In this document: piece by piece, positions 60,146 to 60,374 of the stretch
Layout of the letters: every line of letters starts with the position of its first letter
Position numbering within the stretch: the first letter of the stretch is position 1
Source: Deltaproteobacteria bacterium
GTDB lineage: Bacteria; Bdellovibrionota_C; UBA2361; JAGFJO01
Assembly (NCBI GenBank): GCA_024102635.1
Contig: JAGFJO010000059.1
Coordinates: 1-64,000, forward strand
Length of the DNA stretch: 64,000 nt
Direction: 5' to 3'
Translations under genes and position numbers: made by a program
The notes under the pieces: generated by a model
The model's input: the letters and a program-made list of their open reading frames with translations, nothing else
What the model was told of the DNA's origin: nothing
The model's database searches: none

Positions 60146-60180
60146 GCACGCCCGGACGGGTATTTCTTTTGAAAAAACGG

Positions 60181-60300
60181 CGGAGCCGACCCTTCGACAA
60201 GCTCAGGGTCTTAAATCAAGCCATGAGCTGTGTCGAATGGCGGAGCCGACCCTTCGACAAGCTCAGGGTCTTAAATCAAGCCATGAGCTGTGTCGAATGG
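60181..60300. repeat. Two perfect 60-bp direct repeats joined to the tRNA-Asp 3' end
   Basis: 60181-60240 and 60241-60300 are identical. Each begins CGGAGCCGAC, which is also the first 10 nt (60301-60310) of the tRNA-Asp region, seen from its 3' end. So three copies of the tRNA 3' end lie exactly 60 bp apart, two followed by a repeat body and the third by the tRNA itself. Each unit also holds CCCTTCGACAAGCTCAGGG (60190-60208 and 60250-60268). Confidence 0.92.
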
Positions 60301-60374
60301 CGGAGCCGACGGGACTCGAACCCGCGACCTCTCGCGTGACAGGCGAGCGTTCTAACCAACTGAACTACGACTCC
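60298..60374 (-). tRNA. tRNA-Asp (anticodon GTC)
   Basis: On the minus strand the gene reads GGAGTCG at the 5' acceptor and CGGCTCC at the 3' acceptor (one G-U pair). It has a D-arm with AGTTCAGTTGGTTAGAACG, the anticodon stem CTCGC/GCGAG around CTGTCAC (anticodon GTC, Asp), the T-arm GCGGGTTCGAGTCCCGT, discriminator G and an encoded CCA (60298-60300). It is the only tRNA seen in the window. Its 3' side is joined to 60-bp repeats and its 5' side to a perfect hairpin. Confidence 0.97.

Follow-up and report, generated by a model that had tools for sequence, protein, structure and literature searches.

Tandem copies of a tRNA-Asp 3' end and related end copies at many tRNA genes of a bacterial class, a layout shared with the E. 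coli RtT repeats

Why should the 3' end of a tRNA gene be found three times in a row at exactly equal distances? The question is raised by the tRNA-Asp locus of the window, by which we mean the whole 64,000-nucleotide stretch of DNA that was analysed. The motif CGGAGCCGAC occurs there at 60181, 60241 and 60301, and the initial annotation had read it as three tRNA-Asp 3' ends spaced 60 bp apart with identical 50-nt bodies. These coordinates proved exact by the sequence itself, by TRF and by ARAGORN. Indeed, no difference separates the bodies at 60191-60240 and 60251-60300, and TRF returned a period of 60, 2.2 copies and a 100% match over 60179-60310, an array of 132 bp. Because ARAGORN puts tRNA-Asp at 60298-60374 on the minus strand, the third copy of CGGAGCCGAC belongs to the gene itself, as its true 3' terminus. 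The array and its gene are composed as follows.

60298..60374, minus strand: intact tRNA-Asp(gtc), found by ARAGORN and by the Rfam tRNA model (71.4 bits); the repeated 3' end makes its first appearance in the last 12-13 nt of the gene.
60239..60298, minus strand: first 60-bp unit, adjoining tRNA-Asp; a 48-nt imperfect palindrome, then a tRNA 3'-end copy (60239-60250).
60179..60238, minus strand: second 60-bp unit, identical to the first; its tRNA 3'-end copy (60179-60190) is without the A of CCA.

Together the two units fill 60179-60298 and abut the tRNA gene. Each is made of 12 nt of the tRNA-Asp 3' end, which is the stretch common to all three ends (GGCGGAGCCGAC), and of the 48-nt imperfect palindrome, predicted to fold as a DNA hairpin of -14.9 kcal/mol (z -6.4). 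Two of the copies include the A of the encoded CCA, which the outermost one lacks. A spacer of 47 bp separates the 3'-end copies; it holds no integrase or other cargo, in line with the earlier statement that this is not an integrase island. A search of the spacer for an inverted tRNA-Asp T-arm gave a longest match of 5 nt (cut-off 11 nt), and the foot tag GTAG (or CGTC) is absent from the body. The rest of the 64-kb window contains just three direct repeats of at least 12 nt within 400 bp and a single palindrome with arms of at least 11, and this rarity of comparable repeats and palindromes excludes a chance origin of the array. The repeats lie on the same strand as the gene with no terminator predicted between them, and tRNA-Asp transcripts probably run through them, as had been supposed; the 3' processing of these transcripts might be influenced as well. 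Rfam matches of the 60-bp repeat to microRNA and sRNA families were weak, far under the gathering scores, and were rejected.

The following elements were located in the leader of the gene.

60374..60415: perfect palindrome, with 20-bp arms around a gap of 2 nt, directly beside the mature 5' end of tRNA-Asp; the longest palindrome in the window.
60416..60453: REP-like palindrome CCCTGAG...TCGAAGGG, seen in the sequence.
60469..60496: REP-like palindrome CCCTTCGACTCGCTCTGCTCGCTCAGGG, seen in the sequence, a partial match to the Asp palindrome core pattern.
60434..60567: span of an 18-nt direct repeat TAGCTCGGCGCATCGAAG, copies at 60434-60451 and 60550-60567.
60593..60620, minus strand: promoter-like site TGGACT-16-TATAAT with TG ahead of the -10, from a consensus scan alone.

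By the same scan, the leader from the promoter-like site to tRNA-Asp would measure about 210 nt. A leucyl-tRNA synthetase gene (60745-63441) adjoins tRNA-Asp and is divergent from it, an arrangement conserved in much of the order.

The repeated body is a palindrome, as had been described. Its core, CCCTTCGACAAGCTCAGGG, occurs at 8 further places in the window's genome, 10 in all with at most 2 mismatches, and the reversed-pattern control gave 0. No tRNA was found near the other core places at those loci that were scanned. Because the core recurs at 8 places and the scanned ones are without a tRNA, we regard the Asp body as a dispersed REP-like hairpin. The genome search that had been suggested for the 60-bp unit gave a divided answer: the unit including the tRNA sequence is confined to tRNA-Asp within the window's genome, but the palindrome core alone also sits at non-tRNA places. 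Among the matches listed from plasmid and phage collections, at most 36% of the query was covered, on its tRNA part. Other palindromes are repeated away from tRNA genes as well. Tandem arrays of the CCTTCGACTCGC...GCTCGCTCA type, with no tRNA nearby, were seen at L008, L018 and L019 (C143 of the window's genome) and at L007 (C73), and a second genome of the order, G003, has a dispersed palindromic repeat of ~90 nt, GATTGCCGCCATCCTTCGC...GCTACGGACRACAGG...CTCGCAATGAC, away from its tRNAs (L328, L331, L332 and L336, ~1450-1560).

Is the tRNA-Asp array an isolated case? For each tRNA, copies were sought in its 400-bp flanks after masking of intact tRNAs and, as a swap control, in the flanks of the others; only exact copies of at least 12 nt were counted. 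The sample comprised four fragmented genomes of the class and three outgroups that share only the domain with the window's genome (73 tRNAs), with all or many tRNAs of each. In the window's genome, 12 of 40 tRNAs are followed by a copy of their 3' end or preceded by one of their 5' end (at least 12 nt, within 400 bp); there are 10 copies of the former kind and 3 of the latter, none of the wrong polarity, where the swap control expects about 0. G003 has 16 downstream 3' copies and 8 upstream 5' copies among 34 tRNAs, G010, also of the order, 4 and 0 among 38, and G035, of the same class, 4 and 2 among 37. Altogether, the four class genomes hold 34 downstream 3' copies and 13 upstream 5' copies among 149 tRNAs, with 0 in the wrong direction and a swap expectation of at most 0.1. 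The share of carrier tRNAs reaches 30% in the window's genome and 59% in G003. An own-end copy is carried by 41/149 tRNAs in the class and by 0/73 in the outgroups (Fisher p 1.4e-8, a value that is only a guide because the tRNAs of one genome are non-independent events). To treat the process as a matter of the 3' end of one tRNA was thus incomplete, as it is genome-wide and affects both ends of tRNA genes. The surroundings of the genes are enriched accordingly: palindrome arms cover 10.7% (upstream) and 11.3% (downstream) of the 50 bp beside tRNAs and 0.4% of the rest of the window, a density about 25 times that elsewhere, and in the first 50 bp downstream the share of direct repeats is 27%, as opposed to 0.1% elsewhere.

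The points at which the copies break off follow the architecture of the tRNA. Of the 16 5' copies, seven stop precisely at TAGCT, a motif of the D-stem, and 11 within one base of it; seven run on directly into a palindrome TCCnCC(T/C)TCGC...GGnGGA or a close variant. Palindromes with the exact TCCnCC(T/C)TCGC core occur in the window's genome at five tRNA genes, once beside 5S rRNA and nowhere else. The GTAG seen at the 5' breaks of these other tRNAs derives from the tRNA D-stem. A CCTTCGC..GCTACGG palindrome also lies between the LSU rRNA and 5S rRNA of the window's genome (L325, C59) and just past the 5S gene of G003 (L320, C4). In the latter genome, the tRNA-Gly gene bears three hairpins at successive arm boundaries of its 5' half, and in a pseudo-tRNA-Met (L198/L324) the D-stem palindrome is set cleanly at AGCT^CAG, with tRNA sequence on both sides and without duplication.

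The 3' copies begin at the start of the T-stem, in the T-loop or in the 3' strand of the T-stem, and their spacers measure 47-264 bp. With a cut-off of 11 nt, 13 of 35 3' cases are true tandem units, because the flank that follows the tRNA recurs behind the copy (at least 18 of 22 nt); the flanks of the other 22 have no match. The order in many downstream units is direct-inverted-direct, since 19 of the 35 spacers hold at least 11 nt of the inverted T-arm of the same tRNA (3.5% with swapped tRNAs). A target-site duplication of constant length was sought across loci and not found, the tRNA copies measuring 11-39 nt. The tmRNA gene of the window's genome (L369 1400-1530, C21) is preceded, at a distance of 100 bp, by 30 nt copied from its own 5' end, with hairpins between, and no own-end copies were found at RNase P RNA, the structured-RNA control, in the four genomes. 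As tmRNA has tRNA-like ends, the target appears to be the tRNA-like gene and not every stable RNA, few other RNAs having been sampled.

Relatives carry different inserts at tRNA-Asp: either 26-28 nt of the 3' end recur about 180 bp downstream, or 20-50 nt of the 5' end are found again upstream. The 180-bp unit is found in 5 of the 12 species of one genus, in one of the five as contig-end fragments only, and the tRNA-Asp of other species is without it. In its hairpins, 10 of 43 pairs have changed on both sides, a figure that 0 of 500 shuffles reach. Its 3' copy has 14 aligned bases that are invariant in four species, against 82 variable columns among the 178 of the spacer; all 26 nt are kept in three of these species, and an inserted hairpin splits the copy in the fourth. 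Such conservation suggests either selection at the level of an RNA or a steady renewal of the copy through gene conversion and template switching.

The initial annotation knew of no named element of this form; the RtT repeats of E. coli tyrT/tyrV (RtT RNA, RF00391; gene rttR) are such a precedent. There, 178-bp tandem units lie downstream of tRNA-Tyr, each ending in 19 nt of that tRNA. Tandem units downstream of a tRNA, each closing with the 3' end of that tRNA, are the shared layout, and the tRNA-Asp of the window has it. The E. coli break falls in the T-loop, as in some 3' copies of the class, and the bodies hold an imperfect inverted T-arm, as do 19/35 class 3' cases, unlike the Asp unit of the window; the inverted T-arm of the first unit scores 18/24, more than any of 300 shuffles, and that of each other unit 16/24, a score that the best shuffle also attained. 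However, RtT is found at one E. coli locus and the class has dozens of loci, many of its units are shorter, and it has copies of 5' ends too. The RF00391 model, which matched all four E. coli units as a positive control (L316), gave no match up to E = 1 in the window locus 59500-61000, and none at the class loci L026, L028, L029, L180, L077, L095, L096 and L049. By sequence comparison, then, the tRNA-Asp array is RtT-like in layout and not a member of the RtT family. As far as we found, own-end copies of tRNAs with hairpins are known at one E. coli locus and have not been described on the present scale; a search of open-licence papers for genome-wide tRNA-end repeats returned nothing that matches. 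Small repeats in stable RNA genes are known from cyanobacteria (STRR/SDR) and Rickettsia (RPE). Those are likewise short hairpins in RNA-derived sequence, and the present units are set apart from them, by description only, in that copies of the tRNA's own end accompany the hairpins.

We propose, with a probability of roughly 55%, that the array is an RtT-type repeat, that is, a short tandem duplication with one end inside the tRNA gene, produced by template switching. One end of the duplication would lie at an arm boundary within the gene and the other in the flank, and each new unit would thus carry the tRNA's own end together with hairpin sequence from next to it. In the case of tRNA-Asp, the 48-nt REP-like palindrome would have lain at the 3' end, and the 12-13 nt of the tRNA 3' end would have been duplicated with it. 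Throughout the class, many tRNA genes may have undergone the same process at their 5' and 3' ends. The polarity of the copies, 5' pieces only upstream and 3' pieces only downstream, would follow from one break lying inside the gene, and no selection is needed to explain it. The replication mechanism is what we infer from the direct-inverted-direct order, from the perfect palindromes that lie at tRNA ends and from the arm-boundary breaks, which point to template switching at tRNA hairpins as the generator, with REP-like palindromes decorating its products. Template switching has been proposed both to create and to perfect RNA hairpins (PMC8794818). The earlier suggestion of repeated insertion at, or copying onto, the tRNA 3' end holds as far as a recurrent copying process is concerned, but identical in-register units fit tandem duplication of the tRNA end with its hairpin better than insertion. 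Several observations fit the proposal less well. The 22 of 35 3' cases without a flank match could be insertions or decayed units, the AGCT^CAG hairpin in the pseudo-tRNA-Met resembles an insertion, and the Asp spacer is without an inverted T-arm; moreover, the maintenance of the 180-bp tRNA-Asp unit in five species with covariation is less naturally explained by a purely mutational view.

A tentative alternative, somewhat unlikely in our opinion, is that mobile REP-like palindromes target tRNA genes through a Y1 transposase (RAYT/TnpA_REP) or another enzyme acting on single-stranded DNA hairpins, the tRNA copies being by-products. TnpA_REP requires GTAG and cleaves between C and T (PMC8266576), and the D-stem GTAGCT would supply both the guide and the cleavage site at the TAGCT breaks of the 5' copies, seven of which go on into the TCCnCC(T/C)TCGC palindrome or its close variant. 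The confinement of the exact cores to tRNA genes (five) and the vicinity of the 5S rRNA (one) agrees with such targeting, as do the clean insertion at AGCT^CAG and the three Y1_Tnp genes (PF01797) of the window's genome. Short palindromic bodies, partly dispersed and partly clustered, and GTAG with CT at 5' breaks are features shared with REP/BIME and RAYT systems, in which GTAG-tagged REPs are described (PMC3733652). Unlike in REP/BIME, the copy number seems low (10 sites for the Asp palindrome), the Asp body has no GTAG tag, and the bodies are concentrated at tRNA ends with tRNA pieces inside the unit. Nor do Y1_Tnp numbers follow the pattern: with 0-8 per genome in the class and 0-5 in outgroups, they do not separate carriers from non-carriers. 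Different tRNAs have different palindrome families, and a transposase alone would leave the inverted T-arm pieces and the strict polarity unexplained. Template switching and delivery of palindromes by a transposase may both be at work. An unlikely reading, in our view, is that the units are a selected RNA architecture, transcribed with the tRNA, in which the folding, processing or termination of the tRNA is tuned by alternative structures of the inverted T-arm and the 3' copy. A similar role has been suggested for the E. coli RtT RNA. The covariation of the 180-bp unit (10/43 pairs, 5/12 species) and its fixed 14 bases amid a variable spacer argue for this, and the inverted T-arm and 3' copy of a tRNA-Ser unit fold together, with a z of only -1.9. 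Against it, other congeneric species are without the 180-bp unit at the same gene, the copy could be held exact by gene conversion from the tRNA, and the window's own Asp unit is devoid of an inverted T-arm; in addition, template switching can mimic compensatory change (PMC8794818). A wider form of this idea, which we hold to be quite doubtful, would make the units a dedicated tRNA-end module of the class, with hairpin units carrying the own 3' end and inverted T-arm downstream, or the 5' acceptor strand and D-stem hairpin upstream, spread at most tRNA kinds and at tmRNA and retained as switches that act in cis on the folding or maturation of the tRNA; the E. coli RtT repeats would then be an isolated member.

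Integrases duplicate tRNA 3' ends. Each 3' copy could on that ground be an attR left by internal deletion of an island, and partial tRNA genes do arise widely through integration (PMC9897764). We consider such relics very improbable: a second tRNA 3' end downstream is indeed shared with integrative elements, but the units have neither cargo nor integrase, the 47-264 bp spacers separate copies that are sometimes tandem and in register, half of the 3' spacers contain inverted tRNA pieces, and the 5' end is duplicated in many cases. The variation in copy length between loci (11-39 nt) is likewise unlike a MITE with target-site duplication. Finally, the copy number of the array was read from an assembly of 154 contigs, which might raise the suspicion of an assembly artefact; this is barely credible, because the same anatomy recurs with different sequences at many tRNAs of four genomes and in finished E. 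coli.

The E. coli RtT repeats had seemed a curiosity of a single operon. With the same anatomy at 30% and 59% of the tRNA genes of two genomes, strict polarity and arm-boundary breaks, the origin of RtT becomes testable: tRNA genes may be hot spots of hairpin-driven template switching, or an enzyme may deliver hairpins, or the copies may act on tRNA maturation. A practical consequence is that tRNA 3'-end copies need not signal integrated islands. The pattern may extend beyond the class, as there is a single case in Candidatus Omnitrophica (L123, PCVY01000035.1), where 18 nt of the 3' end of a tRNA-Leu(caa) recur 170 bp downstream of the gene. Two further repeats were seen in the window, a 17-bp unit repeated about five times at 12648-12734 (ACTCTGCCTTTGCAAAC) and a degenerate tandem repeat with periods of 12/24/36 bp at 21591-21680.
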